A stretch of 20,909 nucleotides of DNA from a virus. Shown here in pieces: positions 5,642 to 20,909 of the stretch. Both the position numbers and the translations under genes were made by a program. The stretch's first letter is position 1, and every line of letters starts with the position of its first letter. The notes beneath the pieces were generated by a model. The model was not told where the DNA came from. It saw only the letters and a program-made list of their open reading frames with translations, and ran no database searches. The stretch is from the IMG/VR virus record IMGVR_UViG_3300038701_000133, positions 1 through 20,909 of that record; one strand, written 5' to 3'.

Positions 5642-6094
5642 TTGTATGCCTGTGACCTTCATTGGTGGGATAGATATGCTCACGAAATCAAGTCCGGCTT
5701 TGGTGGCGAGTTGTGGACGCAGTGCCGCATTAGCGCACGGAAGTACGGACTCAAGCTATGGCAAGGGCAATCCATGCCGGGGCTAGGTCGAGATAAGTTG
5801 CACTTTGGCAACAATAGTGGCTATCAGGCTATCAATCTTGCATACTTGCTCGGTGCAGAGTCGATTATCTTGTTAGGATTTGACATGAAGCGCAAGGCGG
5901 GCAAGACGCATTTCTTTGGCGATCATCCCTATCACCGGAACCACGAAGGTCCTACCGACCCAATTATGCAACGCTGGTGCGGCAACTTTAAGCAGTTAGC
6001 ACAGGATTTGTCCCACGAAGGCGTTAAGGTCTACAACGCCACCAGAGAAACGGCTTTGACAGCGTTTGAAAAACGAGAGTTAGAGTTATGCTGA
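5642..6094 (+). CDS. MptE/DUF115-like protein (sugar-pathway associated)
   Basis: The first standard start is a TTG at 5642, giving 150 residues, but the true product is probably about 45 residues longer at the N-terminus (see 5435-5641). From the TTG, residues 2-9 read Y-A-C-D-L-H-W-W. Residues 56-72 contain G-N-N-S-G-Y-Q-A-I-N-L-A-Y-L-L-G-A, then S-I-I-L-L-G-F-D-M. Residues 92-96 read F-G-D-H-P, and V-Y-N-A-T precedes the C-terminus. This pattern matches a family common in phages and prophages whose fold resembles 6-hydroxymethylpterin pyrophosphokinase MptE and DUF115 proteins, the latter linked to protein glycosylation. Its reaction is not established. It overlaps the next gene by 7 bases, so it is translated with the glycosyltransferases. 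Confidence 0.75.
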   Translation: MYACDLHWWDRYAHEIKSGFGGELWTQCRISARKYGLKLWQGQSMPGLGRDKLHFGNNSGYQAINLAYLLGAESIILLGFDMKRKAGKTHFFGDHPYHRNHEGPTDPIMQRWCGNFKQLAQDLSHEGVKVYNATRETALTAFEKRELELC

Positions 6095-6759
6095 CCATAT
6101 TTTGCGGGTTTGATAACCGAGAGGCGATTGGATACCACGTCTTTTGTGCGAGCGTCCTGCACCGGGCAAGCATACCAGTTTCGTTTTCTCCTTTGCGAAT
6201 CAGAACCTCAGACCAAGGCACAAACCAGTTTACGGTGTCTCGATTCCTTGTTCCGTACTTGATGGGATACAAAGGCACTGCGGTATTTGCTGATGCTGCT
6301 GACATGATTTGCTTGGCTGACGTGGCTGAACTTGAGCAACAGCTAAAGGACGTTAAAAACCCCGTTGGTTTAGTCAAGCACGACTACAAAACCCGTCACA
6401 AGGTGAAGTACGTCGGCACAGACATGCAAAGCCCGAATGTGGACTACGAGCGCAAGAACTGGGCAAGCCTGATGTTAATGGATTGCGAGAATCCGGCATG
6501 GAAGTCGGTTACGCCAAAGTCGCTAAACACATGGAGCATGATTGACCTGCTGAAATTCAAGTTCCTTGATGACAGCGAGATCACCGAAATCCCTGACTGC
6601 TGGAATCGTCTTGTTGACGAGGGGCAAAGCGTTGAGGGAGCGAAGATACTGCATTGGACAGCGGGCATCCCCGGATTCAAGCATTACGCCGACGCACCAG
6701 GTGCTGACTTGTGGCGCAAAGAACTGGAACGGACGTGCTACCCATTACATACGCCATAA
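6088..6759 (+). CDS. Glycosyltransferase, GT8-like (GT-A fold)
   Basis: A 223-residue putative sugar transferase. It opens with I-F-C-G-F-D-N-R-E-A-I-G-Y-H-V (residues 4-18), typical of GT8-related enzymes. A-V-F-A-D-A-A-D-M at 65-73 supplies the acidic D69-x-x-D72 motif that would bind the metal and nucleotide-sugar. Residues 95-120 carry the V-K-H-D-Y segment, N-W-A-S-L-M-L follows at about 124-130, and H189-W190 lies in a late H-W-T-A-G segment that in GT8 enzymes also contacts the metal. Donor and acceptor cannot be inferred. It starts at ATG 6088 inside the end of the previous gene and overlaps the next. Confidence 0.85.
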   Translation: MLTIFCGFDNREAIGYHVFCASVLHRASIPVSFSPLRIRTSDQGTNQFTVSRFLVPYLMGYKGTAVFADAADMICLADVAELEQQLKDVKNPVGLVKHDYKTRHKVKYVGTDMQSPNVDYERKNWASLMLMDCENPAWKSVTPKSLNTWSMIDLLKFKFLDDSEITEIPDCWNRLVDEGQSVEGAKILHWTAGIPGFKHYADAPGADLWRKELERTCYPLHTP

Positions 6760-7481
6760 AGTCGGCTCTCACGTCGCCTAAGTTTGGCAAAGCGTTTGCC
6801 AAAGGGTGCAAGGGTCAGTTGGTCTACCACGACAAGCTACCTGCCGAGGGAGGCATCGCCATGTTCGGGCATCCTGATCTCATGTCAATGCTTCATGAGG
6901 CGCAAGACCAAGGCAGGGACTGGTACTACGGCGACAAAGCGTATTTTGGACGTGAGGCGTACTATCGAGCCACCAAGAACGCCTACATGCACAATGCGGT
7001 AGGCGAACCTGACTACAAAAGGTTATCTAAGATAGGCATCAAAGCACAGCCGTGGCGCAATGGCTCATACATCTTGCTTTGCCCGCAAAGTCCGCTTTTC
7101 TTTGCCATGCAGGGAAAAAATCGAAATGAGTGGATTTACTCTGTGACCAAAGAGTTGAAAAAGCACACCAACAGAAAGGTCAGGGTCAGGGAAACCAAGA
7201 AAAGCCCCGGCACAGAGAGCGCGTTTAGGAAGTCGCTTGACGACGTATGGGCAGTCGTTGTGCATTCGTCGATGGCAGGAACACAAGCGGCTATGCACGG
7301 CGTTCCTTGCTTTGCTACTGACCCTGATTGCACGTCTGCCGCATTTGGGTCAACAGACCTATCCTTAATTGAATCGCCGGTCAAACCGGATAATCGTGAC
7401 GACATGGCTGCTGTGTTGGCGGCTAATCAATGGACGCTTGATGAAATCGCATCGGGCATGGCATGGGAGCATATCAAATGA
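6735..7481 (+). CDS. GT-B-like putative glycosyltransferase or sugar-binding protein
   Basis: A 248-residue protein when started at GTG 6735, which has GGAACGG just upstream; a GTG at 6711 would add eight residues. A Y-Y-G-D-K-A-Y-F segment lies at about 64-71, P-W-R-N-G-S-Y-I-L-L-C-P-Q-S at 106-119, and V-V-H-S-S-M-A-G-T-Q-A-A-M-H-G-V-P at 175-191. The last resembles the donor-binding region of GT-B enzymes, where a histidine-serine turn is followed by a helix and G-x-P. The C-terminal Q-W-T-L-D-E-I-A-S-G-M-A-W is a recurrent ending in this phage-associated family. The function is inferred from the GT-B-like motif and from sitting between two other sugar genes; no substrate is visible. Confidence 0.68.
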   Translation: MLPITYAIKSALTSPKFGKAFAKGCKGQLVYHDKLPAEGGIAMFGHPDLMSMLHEAQDQGRDWYYGDKAYFGREAYYRATKNAYMHNAVGEPDYKRLSKIGIKAQPWRNGSYILLCPQSPLFFAMQGKNRNEWIYSVTKELKKHTNRKVRVRETKKSPGTESAFRKSLDDVWAVVVHSSMAGTQAAMHGVPCFATDPDCTSAAFGSTDLSLIESPVKPDNRDDMAAVLAANQWTLDEIASGMAWEHIK

Positions 7482-8134
7482 AAGTATGGGAAGGCATTTA
7501 TTTGCCAGAAAGCGAAACGCATTTAGTGGATTGGATGAAGGCGGTCAAGCACTACGTTGATGGCAAGCCTACTTACCAATACAGTAAGTATGCCGAATGC
7601 CTAAAGATCATTAAAAACCGCAGGCTTGCCATTGATGTTGGCGGCAACCTTGGTCTTTGGTCTAGGGTTATGTGCCTAGACTTTGATCGTGTTGAGGCGT
7701 TTGAGCCAGTGCCTGAATATGCTGAGTACTTCCGCAAAAACGCACCGAACGCCAATCTTAACGAGGTTGCTCTATCGGACTCCGAGGAAATCATCACAAT
7801 GGCTTGCGCTACCAATGGCTCTTGTGGCGATACGGCTCCAATGGTCAGTAAGCGCAAGGAAAAGCCGTTGTGCGAGGTTTTGACGTGGAAGCTAGATGCG
7901 TTTGAGTTTAAGGACGTTGGCTTTATCAAGGTGGATTGCGAGGGCTACGAATTGCATGTGCTAAAAGGCGCAGAGCAAACCATCTTGGATAGCAAGCCTG
8001 TCATTATTGTCGAGCAAAAGCCCGGCAAGGGCAAAAAGTACGGATACAAGGACACTGCGGCTGTCTCATATCTTGAGACACTAGGCATGAAAGTCCATAA
8101 GGTGATTTCCGGCGACTACATCATGAGGTGGTAA
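7478..8134 (+). CDS. FkbM-family SAM-dependent methyltransferase
   Basis: A 218-residue methyltransferase. Start ATG 7478 overlaps the previous stop as ATGA, with GGGAG at 7465-7469 as ribosome binding site. SAM motif I is A-I-D-V-G-G-N-L-G-L-W-S at residues 51-62. The acidic end of the next strand is E-A-F-E-P-V at 73-78. V-A-L-S at 97-100 and F-I-K-V-D-C-E-G-Y-E-L-H-V-L-K-G-A at 149-165 are hallmark FkbM segments, and I-V-E-Q at 177-180 completes the core. FkbM enzymes usually O-methylate sugars or polyketides. Among glycosyltransferases this one most likely methylates a sugar hydroxyl, which in other systems caps or finishes a glycan. That role here is inference. Confidence 0.9.
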   Translation: MKVWEGIYLPESETHLVDWMKAVKHYVDGKPTYQYSKYAECLKIIKNRRLAIDVGGNLGLWSRVMCLDFDRVEAFEPVPEYAEYFRKNAPNANLNEVALSDSEEIITMACATNGSCGDTAPMVSKRKEKPLCEVLTWKLDAFEFKDVGFIKVDCEGYELHVLKGAEQTILDSKPVIIVEQKPGKGKKYGYKDTAAVSYLETLGMKVHKVISGDYIMRW

Positions 8135-8875
8135 ATGGGTTGGGGCGACGAACTAATGGCGGCAGGCGAGGCGATGGCAATGGGTGGTGTAGTTGCCATT
8201 AAAGACCGAAATGGCAATCACAGATACCATCCGGCATGGGAAAACAATCCGTTCATTGCCAAACCGGGTGATAAGTACACAAGGTTCATTGTCAATGCGC
8301 CAGGTTATCGCCCCTACTTCACGGCGGTCAATCAGTCAGCTTGGACGTGGCGTTCATACAGACCAAAGCCTGCCAAGATGTTCTTTTCTGACGATGAGTT
8401 GGCTTTTGCGGGCATGATTGAAAACAACTTTGTAGTGGTTGAGCCAAATCTCAAACACAAGGTTGAATCGGTTAACCGAGACTGGGGCTGGGATAATTTT
8501 GCCCGTGTCACAAAGGAAGTGGACGCAGATTGGGTTCAATTCGGTGCTACCAAGCCTAAACTCTTACCCAATGCACGTTGGATTCAAACGCCTAGCCCAA
8601 GACACATGGCGGCGGCTTTAGCTAAGTCCAAGGCTTTCCTTGCGCCAGAGGGCGGGCTACATCACACGGCAGCGGCATTAAACCTCAAGGGCGTGGTGCT
8701 GTTCGGCGGGTTTATCGCACCGCAAGTCACGGGCTACAAGATGCACAAGAATATATTTATCGGAGATGGCTTAGGATGCGGTAAGCGGGTAAAATGTGAG
8801 CATTGTGAGCAGGCTTGGTCTAAGATCGACCCTGAGCGCATCATTAAAATCATGAGAGGCATGGCAAATGGCTGA
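8135..8875 (+). CDS. Glycosyltransferase, GT9/heptosyltransferase-like
   Basis: A 246-residue GT-B-type protein starting at ATG 8135, directly after the preceding TAA, with GAGGTGG as ribosome binding site. It begins W-G-D-E-L-M-A-A-G-E-A (3-13), comparable to the G-D-x-L-x-x start of GT9 heptosyltransferases. The donor-site segment A-P-E-G-G-L-H-H-T-A-A-A-L (170-182) is followed by V-V-L-F-G-G. A cysteine cluster, C215, C221 and C224, near the C-terminus could bind a metal or form a structural site; it is not part of classical heptosyltransferases. GT9 enzymes add heptose to lipopolysaccharide core, but phage relatives are uncharacterised. It overlaps the next gene by 8 bases. Confidence 0.82.
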   Translation: MGWGDELMAAGEAMAMGGVVAIKDRNGNHRYHPAWENNPFIAKPGDKYTRFIVNAPGYRPYFTAVNQSAWTWRSYRPKPAKMFFSDDELAFAGMIENNFVVVEPNLKHKVESVNRDWGWDNFARVTKEVDADWVQFGATKPKLLPNARWIQTPSPRHMAAALAKSKAFLAPEGGLHHTAAALNLKGVVLFGGFIAPQVTGYKMHKNIFIGDGLGCGKRVKCEHCEQAWSKIDPERIIKIMRGMANG

Positions 8876-15800: not shown

Positions 15801-17864
15801 GCCCAAGAAAAGATAACAGAGGCATTGGGACGGTTCTCAGACAACCTAGTGAACTTTATCGTTCCGTCTATACAGTTTATGACCAAGGAAGGCGAAACCT
15901 CGTCAGAGGCTTTGTCACGGCTTTCTACAAGCATTGCTACGGTCAATAGCGCATTTGCCATGATGGGCATTCAGACGCAAGAGTTGTCATTAAACTCAGC
16001 CCAAGCCGCAAGCAACCTGATTGACTTGGTTGGTGGCATTGATGCGTTTACGCAAAAGACCGACTTTTTGTATCAGAACTTCTATACCCAACAAGAGCGC
16101 GTGGCTCAACTAACCGACCAAGTGTCTGGTGTTTTTGAGCAGCTAGGCTTTGTAATGCCCACCACTAGAGAAGGATTTAAGCAACTCTACGAGGTGGTTG
16201 CAGGTTCGGGTAGCGCATCATTGACTGCGGCGTTGCTTAACCTTGCTCCTGCAATGAACGAAGTCTTAGGTTATACCGAACAGTTGACCGAGGCACAGCG
16301 TCAACAGTCTGCGGCTATCGCTAATGAAAGGCTAGGGCTTGAGCGTCAGTTGATGCAGGCTTTGGACAACACGGTGGCTTTGCGCGAGATGGAATTGGAT
16401 GCCCTTGACGCATCTAACCGTGCCTTGCAAGAACAGTTGTTTGCGCTTGAGGACTCTCAGACAGCATTAGATGAAGCGTCTGTGGCTACTGACTTGGCTT
16501 TTTCTAAACTAGAGCAAGCATTGCAAAACCAGTTGGTCAACACGCTAAACGACCTAGAGACAGCGTTTAATGCGTTGACCGACTCGCTAAACGATCAGAT
16601 TAGCGCAGCTAGGGTAGCCTCTCAGGTTGCAGGCGAGAACTTGCGTGACATGCAAAGCGTGTTTTCGACCCTTGACCGTGAAATCAACTCGCTGTTGCGT
16701 GGAACAACCCAAAGCACGGCTCAGGGCTTTGCATTCATTGCTCAGGCGTTGCAAGCGGCTAGAACGACAGGTTATTTGCCTGACGAAGCATCATTATCAC
16801 AAGCCATTTCTGCGGCTCGCGGTGGTCTTGGTGCTGAGCAGTTCTCCACGGGATTTGAACAGCGTCGCGCCACAGCAGTGCTTGCAAATCAGTTGATCGA
16901 GTTGCGTGACATTACAGGCGATCAGGTTACTGTAGCCGAGCGTCAAATCTCCATTGCTGAGGCACAGTTGGTCGTGCTTACTCAGCGTCTTGACCAGGCT
17001 CAGCGTCAGTACGAAGCAGATCAAGAGGCAGCGCAATCCGAATTTGATCGTCAATTAGAAGAAGCGCAAAACCAGATCAATGTGTTGCGTGATATTGATG
17101 ACTCGGTGTTCGGCGTAGAAAACGCCATTAGCTTGCTCAAGAGCAGCATCGACGCTGAGCGTGGATTGCAGATCAATTTGCAAAAGCAGATGATTGCATT
17201 GCAGGAAGATGCTAATGCACGGGCGCAGGCAGAAAAAGACCGACTGAAAGCAGAAAGGGAAGCGGAAGCAAAAAGACAGGCAGCGGAAGCCAAGGCTATT
17301 GCTGATGCTGAAAAGAAAGCCGAGGAACGCAGAAAGGCAGAAGCGGCGGCAGCCGAAGAAGCAAGGGTAGCAAGAGAAAAGGCGGTGGCAGAAGCAGCAG
17401 ATAGGGCAGCGGCAGAGGAAGCGGCGAGAAAAGCGGCTGAGGAAAAACGTCGCCAATCGTTAATTGATATAGTGACTGGCGGTAACACGCTGCTTGGCGG
17501 CTCTGGAAGCAGCCCTTACACTAGCACTGGCAGGGAAGATGATACGCCTCGTCAGTTTGTGAACATAACAGGTAACGCAGACGGCGGCTATTGGAATGGC
17601 GGCTTATCGCTCGTCGGCGAAGAAGGTCCAGAGCTAGTCAACTTTGCCCGTCCTTCCATGATCTACACGGCGGGCGAGACTGCCGAGATTCTTAACGGCG
17701 GTGCTAAGACAGCAGAGACGACCTCTGAGATTCGCCAATTACGGGCAGACAATCAGGCTCAGTCCCGCGCTTTGGTGTCGTTGCAGGCTAGAATGACAAG
17801 GCTATTAGAGCGTTGGGATGGAGACGGGTTGCCTACTGAGCGTTATGAGGAAACAACAGCATGA
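12801..17864 (+). CDS. Tail tape measure protein
   Basis: A 1687-residue protein, the longest in the window, directly after GT. The N-terminal 180 residues are helical and glutamine-rich. Residues about 181-230 carry the TMP_2/lambda-type segment R-L-L-P-A-Q-I-T-D-V-V-T-S-L-A-S-G and Q-Q-G-G-Q-L-R-D-S-F-G-G. A hydrophobic stretch follows at about 240-258. A lambda-like C-domain segment lies around 690-740 (D-Y-M-V-N-L-F-K-T-M-V-L-R-P-V). Glycine/alanine-rich hydrophobic segments at about 835-900 could cross a membrane. Long coiled coils follow, including an A/E/K-rich helix at about 1472-1553. Near 1595-1615 is the G-L-S-L-V-G-E-E-G-P-E-L-V-N-F motif found in many tape measures. Length suggests a long tail, roughly 1.5 angstrom per residue by the usual rule. 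Confidence 0.95.
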   Translation: MATGKIGDLKVGIGVEVDSSVDQATKRVTKSVQDIAEQTKKTGDQVSKEMGKTSKSIAGVEVSYDKLNKTQNRVVRQIERSVVRQTSQTKSAYLDWVASTSGVENATESLRNQLRLFEQQQEQAASAGNKFVQSLREQTETLGMTRRELLEYQATQLGVRDQAQPMIDRLFDTSGAYRSVEMSAKQTRQAMRLLPAQITDVVTSLASGMPIYLVAIQQGGQLRDSFGGLGNVLRGVRALISPTMLAIGGLAAAGAAAYLAYERLNAGMQQVNRTLIETGNSSGVTSSQILAMSKTVAEFAGTQRQAQEALNFIVASNDILSDSYTKVALAAVQWSEATGKSVEDVVSEFQSLAEKPAESLEKLDKQYNFLTVSSYEQVQALLAQGNQADASRILIDELADTIEQRTPKMIEQTNLFAQAWGYVSLGAKTALDDFLSFFDEAGAQELYDETVNEFFRLDELRRQLIRDQAVDPQALEALEYEMSQLELLMGKYSEILIAQKQSAELDREQAQIKRVLADANKVINENLTTQQVLQAGINRLNELYLPILRKQNLEEATRIKLTQAYNLAAQGLVNTYLESIEVNDDVATSTRDVNAEILQSIENYRFETDALTMNTYERERAAFVRDLEEKGIRANTAAWREYIDAFDAAQMERRTLRSQLDFLEREKKMLEERTKERLKEEERFASEAEKINDQIGQSLTDALINGSLSAKDYMVNLFKTMVLRPVLQPIISGTLGAFGVGAAGAAIAGVPGGEMAGGGDLFGMLSAGKSAYDVLSGGFTAVGNAASTLTATLLGEAAAVEAVLASTSAEMMAANVAALESIGATSAAVGAAATVLAGVAAGLTAGSFISGKYSLFGNDPMVATALGTAAGAAIGLAFGPVGAAIGAFIGGAGGGLINRAFGRGPKETQAAGITGTLSAGDSDLMAFQEWSRKGGWFSSGSRGQDFSALDQQIVGFLNQETAAIGLSVAILAQQLGQSSDRITEYSEQIRIDLLNLSDEEAQEKITEALGRFSDNLVNFIVPSIQFMTKEGETSSEALSRLSTSIATVNSAFAMMGIQTQELSLNSAQAASNLIDLVGGIDAFTQKTDFLYQNFYTQQERVAQLTDQVSGVFEQLGFVMPTTREGFKQLYEVVAGSGSASLTAALLNLAPAMNEVLGYTEQLTEAQRQQSAAIANERLGLERQLMQALDNTVALREMELDALDASNRALQEQLFALEDSQTALDEASVATDLAFSKLEQALQNQLVNTLNDLETAFNALTDSLNDQISAARVASQVAGENLRDMQSVFSTLDREINSLLRGTTQSTAQGFAFIAQALQAARTTGYLPDEASLSQAISAARGGLGAEQFSTGFEQRRATAVLANQLIELRDITGDQVTVAERQISIAEAQLVVLTQRLDQAQRQYEADQEAAQSEFDRQLEEAQNQINVLRDIDDSVFGVENAISLLKSSIDAERGLQINLQKQMIALQEDANARAQAEKDRLKAEREAEAKRQAAEAKAIADAEKKAEERRKAEAAAAEEARVAREKAVAEAADRAAAEEAARKAAEEKRRQSLIDIVTGGNTLLGGSGSSPYTSTGREDDTPRQFVNITGNADGGYWNGGLSLVGEEGPELVNFARPSMIYTAGETAEILNGGAKTAETTSEIRQLRADNQAQSRALVSLQARMTRLLERWDGDGLPTERYEETTA

Positions 17865-18811
17865 GTACAGACGCTAACGCCTTAACGATTATCCGTCCGT
17901 TGACGATTACGGACAGCATCATTGACGAGTCTGGCTCGCCACCGGCTACAAACGTGCCTGAGAACGACCATTCTGAATGGAACTCAGGCACAACGTATGA
18001 CCAAGGCGATAGGGTTATCCTGACCTCTACGCATCGTGTTTATGAGTCCTTGCTTGACCTGAACACGGGCAACGACCCTACCGTGACCTCTAGCCCAACA
18101 TATTGGATTGAGGTGGGTCCGACAAACCGTTATGCGGCGTTTGACACCTCTGTGTCCACGCAGACGGTTCAGGCTAACAATATCACCTACCAATTAGTGC
18201 CGGGCGAAGCGATTAACAGCATTGGCATTTTGAACATCCGGCAAGGCACGGAAATCAACATTACGATGGTTTCTCCCGGAACAGGCTCGCCAGGTATCGT
18301 GTATCAGCGCACCATTGACTTGTCGTCATTGCCGCTAACGCCCGATTGGTGGTCTTGGTTTTACGGTCAAAAGGTGACACCCACACAATCCATTGCCCTT
18401 GACCTGCCTTCATATTCTGACTGCGAAATCACCATTGAGATACTAGGCGGTTCTGATTTGGCAGTAGGCGTTATTCTGATCGGGCAGCAACAGAACTTTG
18501 GTCTTGGCATTCGCTATGGTGCTAGAGTAGGCATCCAAGATTACAGCCGTAAAGAGACAAACGCCTTTGGCGAGACGGTGCTAGTGCAACGGGCATTCGC
18601 CAAACGCGCCAATTTCGACTTGTTTCTAAACAACGAGGAAGTTGACTCATTTCAGAATGCATTAAGTACAATTAGGGCAGTGCCGGTGCTTTGGATTGGC
18701 TCTACGGCATTTGAATCTACAACCTTGTTCGGGTTCTACAAGAATTTTGACATTCTTATCTCGTATCCTGAGCATTCCGATTGTGAATTAGAGATAGAAG
18801 GATTGGTCTAA
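17861..18811 (+). CDS. Tail protein with carbohydrate-binding-like motif
   Basis: A 316-residue protein starting at ATG 17861, overlapping the tape measure stop as ATGA. Residues 39-52 read E-W-N-S-G-T-T-Y-D-Q-G-D-R-V, the W-x-x-G-x-x-Y-x-x-G-D-x-V pattern of small CBM5/12-like carbohydrate-binding modules, followed by Y-W-I-E-V-G-P about 30 residues later, as expected for such a module. The remainder is beta-rich, including S-W-F-Y-G-Q-K near 162 and a C-terminal domain with D-Y-S-R-K-E-T-N-A-F-G-E-T. It occupies the position of a distal or tip-associated tail protein. Binding to a cell-surface glycan is inferred from the motif only. Confidence 0.75.
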   Translation: MSTDANALTIIRPLTITDSIIDESGSPPATNVPENDHSEWNSGTTYDQGDRVILTSTHRVYESLLDLNTGNDPTVTSSPTYWIEVGPTNRYAAFDTSVSTQTVQANNITYQLVPGEAINSIGILNIRQGTEINITMVSPGTGSPGIVYQRTIDLSSLPLTPDWWSWFYGQKVTPTQSIALDLPSYSDCEITIEILGGSDLAVGVILIGQQQNFGLGIRYGARVGIQDYSRKETNAFGETVLVQRAFAKRANFDLFLNNEEVDSFQNALSTIRAVPVLWIGSTAFESTTLFGFYKNFDILISYPEHSDCELEIEGLV

Positions 18812-19245
18812 TGGCTATTACACCCCTACCAGACGCGCCTGAGCCAACAGACAGCACGGCGCAATTTAACACCAAGGCTTTCGCTTGGGTGGCGGCGTTG
18901 GATACGTTTACGACGCAGGCGAATGCGTTGGAAACCAATGTTGAGTCGCTCAAAGCAGATACCGATACCAATGTAAATTTGGCGCAGGCAGCAGCCAATG
19001 CGTCTGCGGTCAGTGCGGCGCAGTCGCAAAGTTATGTGACCGACGCGGAGGCATTTGCTGATGAGGCTGAAACATTCGCAGACAGTGCAGAGGCATCTGC
19101 AACAGCGGCGCAAGCGGCAGCAGGTTTGCCTTCATTGGCAGGCAAAAACGGCTACGTCCTCAAAGTAAACGATGACGCAAGCGGAGTAAGTTGGCAGCCA
19201 GCGCAGGCGTTTGGGGCTGCTGAAACATTCATTTTATCTATGTAA
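18811..19245 (+). CDS. Short coiled-coil tail fibre-like protein
   Basis: A 144-residue protein overlapping the previous stop by one base (TAATG). Residues 1-35 are a folded start (A-I-T-P-L-P-D-A-P onwards). Residues 36-105 are an alanine-rich coiled coil with repeats of A-x-x-A and A-E-x-F-A-D, probably trimeric. Residues 108-135 contain L-A-G-K-N-G-Y-V-L-K-V-N-D-D-A-S-G-V-S-W, a segment seen near the ends of phage fibre and stalk proteins. It probably forms a stalk or attaches the next protein, the diversified receptor-binding candidate, to the tail. That role is inferred from position and composition. Confidence 0.72.
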   Translation: MAITPLPDAPEPTDSTAQFNTKAFAWVAALDTFTTQANALETNVESLKADTDTNVNLAQAAANASAVSAAQSQSYVTDAEAFADEAETFADSAEASATAAQAAAGLPSLAGKNGYVLKVNDDASGVSWQPAQAFGAAETFILSM

Positions 19246-19254
19246 GGAAAAACC

Positions 19255-20805
19255 ATGGGCTTCCGTTCTATATCAGCAAGCATTGGCACGTCAGATACCG
19301 TTATCACGACCATGCCAGATTTCTTCAATGGTGCGGCTGTATTGGCTATTGCCAACACGGACTCCACGTCGCGCACGTTGACGCTCAAGCTACGCAAGCG
19401 CAATACACTGACCGCAGAGACGATTGGCGTGATTGCGGTGGCGGCAACATCTAGCGAAAAGTATGGCGCACCGATTGGCTTGGAACCGGGTGACACGCTG
19501 CTAGGCGTTTGCGCCACAGCCGATGTTATGAAGGTGTCCGGCTCATTGGTTGATGGCTCACAGTCGCAATCTAGTCTTGCCTTAGATGCTCTGTACAGTG
19601 CCAAGTTCGAGTGGGATGCGTCCACTAGCAGCCCTGCTGCATCGTCAGTCAATACCATTCCTACGTTGGTGATGGAAGGACTTTACAACCGGATTCGCGG
19701 TTGTGTGCTGAACACAAATGGCTCGGTGAATTACTATTTGAACCCGACCAACTGGACGCAGAAATTAGGTGGCGGGACAGCTAATCTGACTGGCACAGAT
19801 GGCAACGTCATGGTTGAATTACCATCCACTTACATCAAAACCACTAGGGTTGGTACGCTGTACACCTACGAGGTATCGCCAGTCCAGTTACCGGGCTTTT
19901 ACCTTGCTCCTGCTTTGATTAAGGATGGCGGTATCGTTGCCAATCGCTACTACGGTGCATATGACGCTTGTGTGTACGATGTATCCGCATCGGCATATAT
20001 TGCGGGATTGAACTACGATAACAACGATGGTGGCAACGGTGTCGGCGTGGATGTTACCGCATCAACAGGCGATAAGTTGGCATCCGTTAAGGACATTTAC
20101 CCCATGGTTGGTCTGACCCGCGCAGAGTTCCGCACATTGGCGGCTAACGTGGGTTCAGGATGGCGACAACTAGACTTCCATCTATGGTCGCTGATTCAAA
20201 TGCTGTATTTGGTTGAGAACCAATCGTTTTACTCGCAGAATATTCTTGGCGCAGGTAACACGAACGGTTCGTACATTGGCTCTAGCGGTAATCAGTCAGA
20301 CAGCCCGCACACTATCGCAGGCGCAGGTGATTCGATTGCCAATGGCTCTACCGATACCACTAGCGGCGCAGGTGTTAGTGCCAAGCCCGGTACATCGTTT
20401 ATGAAATACCGTGGTATCGAGAACCTATACGGCAACTGCTGGAATTGGGCAGATGGCATCAACATCAATGTAAGTGGCACAGGCAATGTCCACATGACCA
20501 ACAATGCCGCTAATTGGGCTGATAACACGGCTACGAACTATGACTTGATTACGGATTCGCTAAGCACGGGCAGTAACTATATTTCTGACTTGTTGCCTGC
20601 CGACCCGTATTTCTTAGCTTCAGAGGTTAGCGGCTCGTCATCTACCTACATTACTGATCGCCACTATGGTTCAGCATCATCAAATCGCGTCGCTCGTGTC
20701 GGCGGTAGTGCGGTTGATGGCGCGAGTGCGGGCGCGTTCGGCTTGAGTGCTAATTATGATTCCTCGAATGCGGTTCGTAGTCTCGGCGGGCGGCTCGCAT
20801 ATTGA
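19255..20805 (+). CDS. DGR target protein with C-type-lectin-fold C-terminus (probable receptor-binding protein)
   Basis: A 516-residue protein, ATG 19255 with AAGGA upstream. Residues 1-120 are beta-rich and probably dock to the tail. Residues about 264-516 look like the C-type-lectin/formylglycine-generating-enzyme-type fold used by DGR targets. They include A-N-V-G-S-G-W-R-Q-L-D-F-H-L-W-S-L-I-Q-M near 298-317, Y-R-G-I-E-N-L-Y-G-N-C-W-N-W at 385-398 and the terminal L-G-G-R-L-A-Y. Residues 478-516 lie in the variable repeat. Compared with the template read in frame, the aligned part differs at 12 residues (478, 481, 483-485, 487, 488, 490, 491, 494, 496, 498), with one silent change at 492. 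This matches a host-receptor ligand diversified as in the Bordetella phage Mtd protein. It is the last full gene of the window. Confidence 0.9.
   Translation: MGFRSISASIGTSDTVITTMPDFFNGAAVLAIANTDSTSRTLTLKLRKRNTLTAETIGVIAVAATSSEKYGAPIGLEPGDTLLGVCATADVMKVSGSLVDGSQSQSSLALDALYSAKFEWDASTSSPAASSVNTIPTLVMEGLYNRIRGCVLNTNGSVNYYLNPTNWTQKLGGGTANLTGTDGNVMVELPSTYIKTTRVGTLYTYEVSPVQLPGFYLAPALIKDGGIVANRYYGAYDACVYDVSASAYIAGLNYDNNDGGNGVGVDVTASTGDKLASVKDIYPMVGLTRAEFRTLAANVGSGWRQLDFHLWSLIQMLYLVENQSFYSQNILGAGNTNGSYIGSSGNQSDSPHTIAGAGDSIANGSTDTTSGAGVSAKPGTSFMKYRGIENLYGNCWNWADGININVSGTGNVHMTNNAANWADNTATNYDLITDSLSTGSNYISDLLPADPYFLASEVSGSSSTYITDRHYGSASSNRVARVGGSAVDGASAGAFGLSANYDSSNAVRSLGGRLAY
20685..20802 (+). repeat. 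DGR variable repeat (VR)
   Basis: The 3' end of the 19255 gene repeats with an offset of 157 bases at 20842 onward. In the 68 bases that can be compared (20685-20752), 53 are identical. Fourteen of the 15 differences are where the downstream copy has A, and 14 of its 19 adenines are changed, while only one of 49 other positions is. That asymmetry identifies this copy as VR and the other as template. The right boundary is set at the GC-rich end before the stop codon and is inferred. Confidence 0.92.
20781..20799 (+). promoter_or_regulatory. Probable initiation of mutagenic homology (IMH) at the VR end
   Basis: The last part of VR is a G/C-rich run (TCTCGGCGGGCGGCTCGC) with no A in it, directly before the TAT-TGA end of the gene. 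In studied DGRs the VR ends in such a run, which marks where cDNA integration starts and which the template carries in a slightly different form. The matching template part lies beyond the window, so this is assigned by position and composition. Confidence 0.45.
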
Positions 20806-20830
20806 TATAGTTTTAGGGGGTTAAATTCCG

Positions 20831-20909
20831 ATGAACATTAGTCACGTCGCTCATGTCAGCAGTAATGCGAATAATGGCACGAATGCAGGCACGTTCTACT
20901 TGAATGCTA
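20831..20909 (+). other. Open frame through the template repeat (ATG at 20831)
   Basis: An ATG at 20831 with TAGGGGG about 10 bases upstream opens a frame that runs through the template to the window end without a stop. It is the same frame as the target gene, and reads N-I-S-H-V-A-H-V-S-S-N and so on. Template repeats often keep an open frame because they derive from target genes, so translation is not implied. Product and end unknown. Confidence 0.25.
20842..20909 (+). repeat. DGR template repeat (TR), cut by the window end
   Basis: This copy starts 36 bases after the target gene stop. Read in the target frame it is rich in AAT codons (N-A-N-N-G-T-N-A-G-T-F-Y-L-N-A), the usual template design in which adenines in the first two codon positions can be changed to many residues. 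All but one of the differences from VR fall on its adenines. The template is transcribed, reverse-transcribed with errors at A, and the cDNA replaces VR. The close spacing leaves no room for an accessory gene between target and template, so avd and the reverse transcriptase should follow downstream. Confidence 0.92.

Follow-up and report, generated by a model that had tools for sequence, protein, structure and literature searches.

In the diversity-generating retroelement (DGR) of Bordetella phage BPP-1, ordered mtd-avd-TR-brt, Avd has been described as essential to retrohoming (PMC10053308, PMC12875486), and the enzyme shows a preference for cytosine opposite template adenines (59.3% of errors; PMC12875486). 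The structure of the variable protein of a Thermus aquaticus DGR has also been reported (PMC6328139). The window analysed here is an entire viral contig of 20,909 bases (IMGVR_UViG_3300038701_000133), the end of which falls inside a template repeat (TR). Together with a second contig overlapping that end (L030), it almost certainly contains the DGR of an HK97-type siphovirus, compactly arranged as tail gene (carrying the variable repeat, VR), TR and reverse transcriptase (RT). The element is of a known kind and of modest novelty, and represents a further example, which is well supported because L030 supplies the RT. The interpretation as a DGR, made in a sequence-only reading of the window, was supported by this RT and by the VR changes found at template adenines in relatives.

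A base-by-base recount of VR 20685-20752 against TR 20842-20909 gave 15 mismatches over 68 positions, 14 of them at TR adenines. Sorted by TR base, the changed VR positions were 14/19 for A, 0/16 for C, 0/16 for G and 1/17 for T, and the recomputed bias toward TR adenines (14/19 A versus 1/49 non-A; Fisher p = 1.3e-9) confirmed the adenine-specific asymmetry noticed earlier (14 of 15 differences). The substitutions comprised 13 A to G, one A to T and one T to G, the latter (20740) being the sole non-A change in the VR. When every position on both strands was scanned for agreement with the 49 TR bases other than A, the VR scored 48, compared to 31 for the runner-up unrelated site, which overlaps the TR on the opposite strand. 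Once the TR was completed from L030, nine extra changes appeared in VR 20753-20798, every one of them at a TR adenine. The pair itself was real, and both repeats proved longer than first proposed, the VR reaching about 20798 and the TR continuing about 46 bases past the window. The share of A to G changes went from 13/14 in 20685-20752 down to 15/19 over the VR core (bases 1 to 97 of the full-length alignment), with no difference from the relatives (146/243; p = 0.14). A mechanism limited to A to G changes was ruled out by the 15/19 over the full core and the 60% in relatives.

The IMH-like end of the VR and its TR counterpart (TCGGCAGGCAGCACGC) showed fixed differences at 20788, 20792 and 20795, and relatives showed a similar kind of difference between IMH and IMH*. 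No stable hairpin was found behind the VR of the window. Behind the VR of L011, L015 and L017, hairpins with 6-bp stems and the loop GTA were present, and stems were also seen in L004 and L006. In the GTA-loop hairpins, both arms of the stem differ between the contigs (GGTGC/GCACC, GCTGC/GCAGC, GTTGC/GCAAC), which recalls the cruciform element of BPP-1.

Coordinates of the DGR features in the window, on the overlapping contig L030 and in related contigs. Positions without a contig name refer to the window.
Feature	Position	Strand	Details
Tail-module protein	17861..18811	+	phrog_6278; similar protein at same position in L002 and L005
Tail-associated neighbour	18811..19245	+	weak fibre-like matches; part of tail module
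DGR target gene, 516-aa tail protein	19255..20805	+	phrog_5302 'tail protein', 2.3e-79
Variable repeat (VR)	20685..20798	+	23 changes at TR adenines, one non-A
3'-most mutable VR-core position	20782	+	TR partner 20939 = A
IMH-like invariant 3' end of VR	20783..20798	+	TCGGCGGGCGGCTCGC; relatives compared
Overlap with L030	20783..20909	+	127 bases, end-to-end, 100% identity to reversed L030
Template repeat (TR), 5' part	20842..20909	+	about 46 more bases on L030; total about 114
Reverse transcriptase	L030 6768-7811	minus	PF00078; phrog_1423, 2.7e-92
105-aa gene	L030 6454-6771	minus	overlaps RT stop codon; equivalents e.g. L005:7371-7697
Hairpins behind VR	L011:1785-1860, L015:3355-3430, L017:2978-3053		conserved loop GTA
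L005 cassette	L005 7231-7374		mid-TR joined to last RT codons
L013 cassette	L013 7233-7628		RT residues 1 to about 244 missing
S-EIV1 cassette	L032 3960-4295		VR and TR kept, about 28 N-terminal RT residues left

With the last TR bases as query, one other viral contig was matched, L030 (IMGVR_UViG_3300038701_000889; 8,056 bases), which carries the remaining TR, a structured spacer, the RT and a 105-aa gene. The exact overlap of the two contig ends has the look of neighbouring pieces in one assembly graph, and L030 probably comes from the same phage population as the window, the join resting on this overlap rather than on reads. An RT with a Y-x-D-D-type motif had been sought downstream of the TR and was found on L030, outside the window and about 0.15 kb past the TR, with the motif YCDD; the avd gene expected alongside it was not recognised in the contigs searched. 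The best PDB relative of the L030 RT was 8ub7_A (E 1.6e-31), a 328-aa reverse transcriptase equal in length to the BPP-1 enzyme, which we take this entry to be. Direct comparison with BPP-1 Brt gave 31% identity over 320 aa. The RT also possesses the motif LPIGNYTSQ, of the [LIV]GxxxSQ type shared by the other DGR enzymes compared, where a group II-like RT in that comparison has GGPLSP. The RT tree, with long branches and open forks, was used for motif comparison only, and the placement of its BPP-1 row, a wrong or over-long frame stretch (561 residues), was not relied on.

The fold of the spacer between TR and RT, evaluated over 10 sequences, had 96% of cells paired and 20 double-change cells versus 8.6 in shuffles, exceeding all 500 shuffles as well as all slid controls, which were far lower. 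No Rfam family matched the spacer at gathering score. A protein-coding gene spanning the TR and spacer was considered and rejected, the frame reaching the RT start in some relatives and not in others. RNA is the better reading of this region, because the frame is inconsistent among relatives and the base pairs covary.

Relatives of the tail protein were found on 17 viral contigs, 11 of which also encoded an RT, and VR/TR pairs were recovered in 11 distinct relatives. As the pair search tolerated at most two non-A changes per pair, the low non-A counts of these pairs are partly built in, and close relatives were compared as the unbiased adenine test. L010 and L011, 99.6% identical elsewhere, differed at 33 of 7,578 positions outside the VR; their TRs were identical, and their VRs showed 15 differences over 115 positions, 14 of these at template adenines. 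Between L004 and L006, 19 of 118 VR positions differed, 17 at template adenines, compared to 56 of 2,240 outside. VR changes falling almost exclusively at template adenines, proposed as a check on the initial reading, were seen in related genomes. The cassette arrangement was likewise shared by more distant relatives, among them Levilactobacillus genomes and a deltaproteobacterial MAG. Another distant relative, from the roe deer rumen bacterium isolate RGIG4922 (L045:6895-7303), has the order VR-TR-RT, with its VR and TR 282 bases apart. In L003 (5076-5263), the VR is devoid of its 3' end and nearly abuts the TR (spacing 95 bases), and the tail protein is truncated, reflecting either a deletion or an assembly collapse.

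The window's two copies have the same orientation and lie 157 bases apart, as would suit a plain duplication of the end of the gene that later acquired neutral or selected substitutions, with no retroelement involved. Such an origin is nevertheless extremely improbable: 20685-20798 contains a single change that is not at a TR adenine, L010 and L011 share an identical TR but have VRs that diverge almost exclusively at template adenines, and an RT follows in most relatives. Hardly any probability attaches either to an assembly artefact fusing two strains' versions of one repeat: the contig end does lie inside the repeat, but the same VR-TR layout, with similar spacing, recurs on independent contigs from several metagenomes and in Levilactobacillus genomes.

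The relatives also provide a precedent for a DGR recently stripped of its RT, in which the VR and TR would be a frozen relic that no longer diversifies. Three related cassettes (L005, L013 and Synechococcus phage S-EIV1) keep the VR and all or part of the TR without a working RT, most of the gene having gone through different deletions. S-EIV1 is an isolated cyanophage with a complete record, the whole 79 kb of which yielded no further RT. In these relatives, the enzyme was plausibly lost after a useful variant had been fixed; an RT may also be supplied in trans, and assembly error may account for the loss in the two metagenome contigs (L005 and L013). For the present locus, a relic is very unlikely, given the intact RT on L030 directly behind the TR and a contig break exactly at the last mutable adenine, a pattern that coexisting VR variants would produce. 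On the window, L030 begins at 20783, one base past the partner of the last TR-core adenine (20782), and it is just there that the assembly graph is expected to branch with several coexisting variants. Five further contigs (L007, L014, L016, L015 and L023) also end or have unknown bases at the VR, and the breaks suggest current VR diversity. A second VR variant of the same phage was not found in the search of viral contigs. The element is probably active.

The presence of Avd was inspected at several levels. Between the tail gene and the RT there was no Avd, only the TR and the spacer, and BPP-1 Avd used as query matched none of 774 ORFs. A PF05635 search for Avd likewise returned no match, and as this model also misses BPP-1 Avd, its negative result is uninformative on the absence of Avd. 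The 105-aa product, whose gene is conserved in relatives, has a predicted fold of strands plus three helices, with no significant PDB match and no profile match to Avd. It was rejected as an Avd substitute, having no resemblance to Avd and being kept in the RT-less L005 and L013; because of this retention, it is more likely the product of a tail-module gene. That the lineage works without Avd, its RT using the folded spacer RNA alone or another partner such as the 105-aa product, is a tentative and rather doubtful idea; if true, the spacer RNA or the 105-aa product would help the RT prime and copy the TR.

Under the preferred reading of a functional DGR, an RNA covering the TR and the folded spacer would be copied by the RT, which would misread template adenines while copying. 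The A-mutated cDNA would then overwrite the tail gene's 3' VR, leaving the TR unchanged, with the replacement anchored by the invariant G+C-rich IMH-like end. The tip of the resulting tail protein would be variable and C-type-lectin-like. For this phage, both the copying and the retrohoming are inferred. Several points weigh against this reading: no Avd was recognised, although retrohoming reportedly depends on it, the VR of the window has no stable hairpin behind it, L030 is joined by overlap, one change is at a non-A base, and the modelled variable domain was of low quality.

The VR forms the C-terminus of the 516-aa tail protein. A family profile including distant members matched 5vf4 through the C-terminal domain (E 3e-13), the match covering the C-type-lectin core and reaching weakly into the variable end; this entry code presumably designates the DGR variable protein of Thermus aquaticus, a C-type-lectin protein. 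The AlphaFold model of the tail protein had a mean pLDDT of 48.8 and was too poor over the variable domain to bear out the fold. The variable C-type-lectin-like tip is most likely a receptor-binding surface, and the tail protein may thereby affect host range. The phage is HK97-like, with an HK97-type portal and capsid, and its large terminase shares 55% identity with that of Pseudomonas phage PAJU2. Between the capsid and the head-tail genes, the window also harbors a sugar-related gene block (5642-8875), encoding an FkbM methyltransferase (PF05050; 1.5e-14) and including a weak glycosyltransferase family 9 match and an MptE-like match.

Overall, this locus brings a metagenomic phage lineage into the group of DGRs acting on tail proteins. 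Its layout is compact and no Avd was recognisable, and the lineage is well suited to studying what an RT requires in addition to template RNA. It also indicates that contigs of a metagenome can break at a diverse VR, leaving the diagnostic RT and the target gene on separate contigs. The RT-less relatives suggest that phages may at times fix a favoured variant through loss of the enzyme.

Among the known systems, Synechococcus phage S-EIV1 shares a homologous tail protein and a VR/TR pair in which 27 of 34 TR adenines are changed, whereas its RT is cut down to an N-terminal remnant. The Levilactobacillus and related DGRs (L040-L044), probably located in prophages, have a homologous target and a TR 160-175 bases behind the VR, with the RT next in L040 and L041 (those checked), but their target is only about 30% identical and their hosts are different. 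The variable protein of Thermus aquaticus (TaqVP; 5vf4, PMC6328139) resembles the present target by profile over the C-type-lectin core, and the target differs in being annotated as a virion tail protein of a phage. Compared to the BPP-1 DGR, no avd was recognised here, the TR follows the VR after 157 bases while in BPP-1 it lies behind avd, the RT carries YCDD instead of YMDD, and a clear hairpin behind the VR, lacking in the window, is present in some relatives. Both systems carry adenine-specific changes in a VR that closes a tail or receptor-binding gene at its 3' end, a TR that immediately precedes the RT and is separated from it by a spacer, a homologous RT (31%) and an IMH/IMH* pair, and the A to G bias observed here and in relatives agrees with the BPP-1 enzyme's preference for cytosine (PMC12875486).
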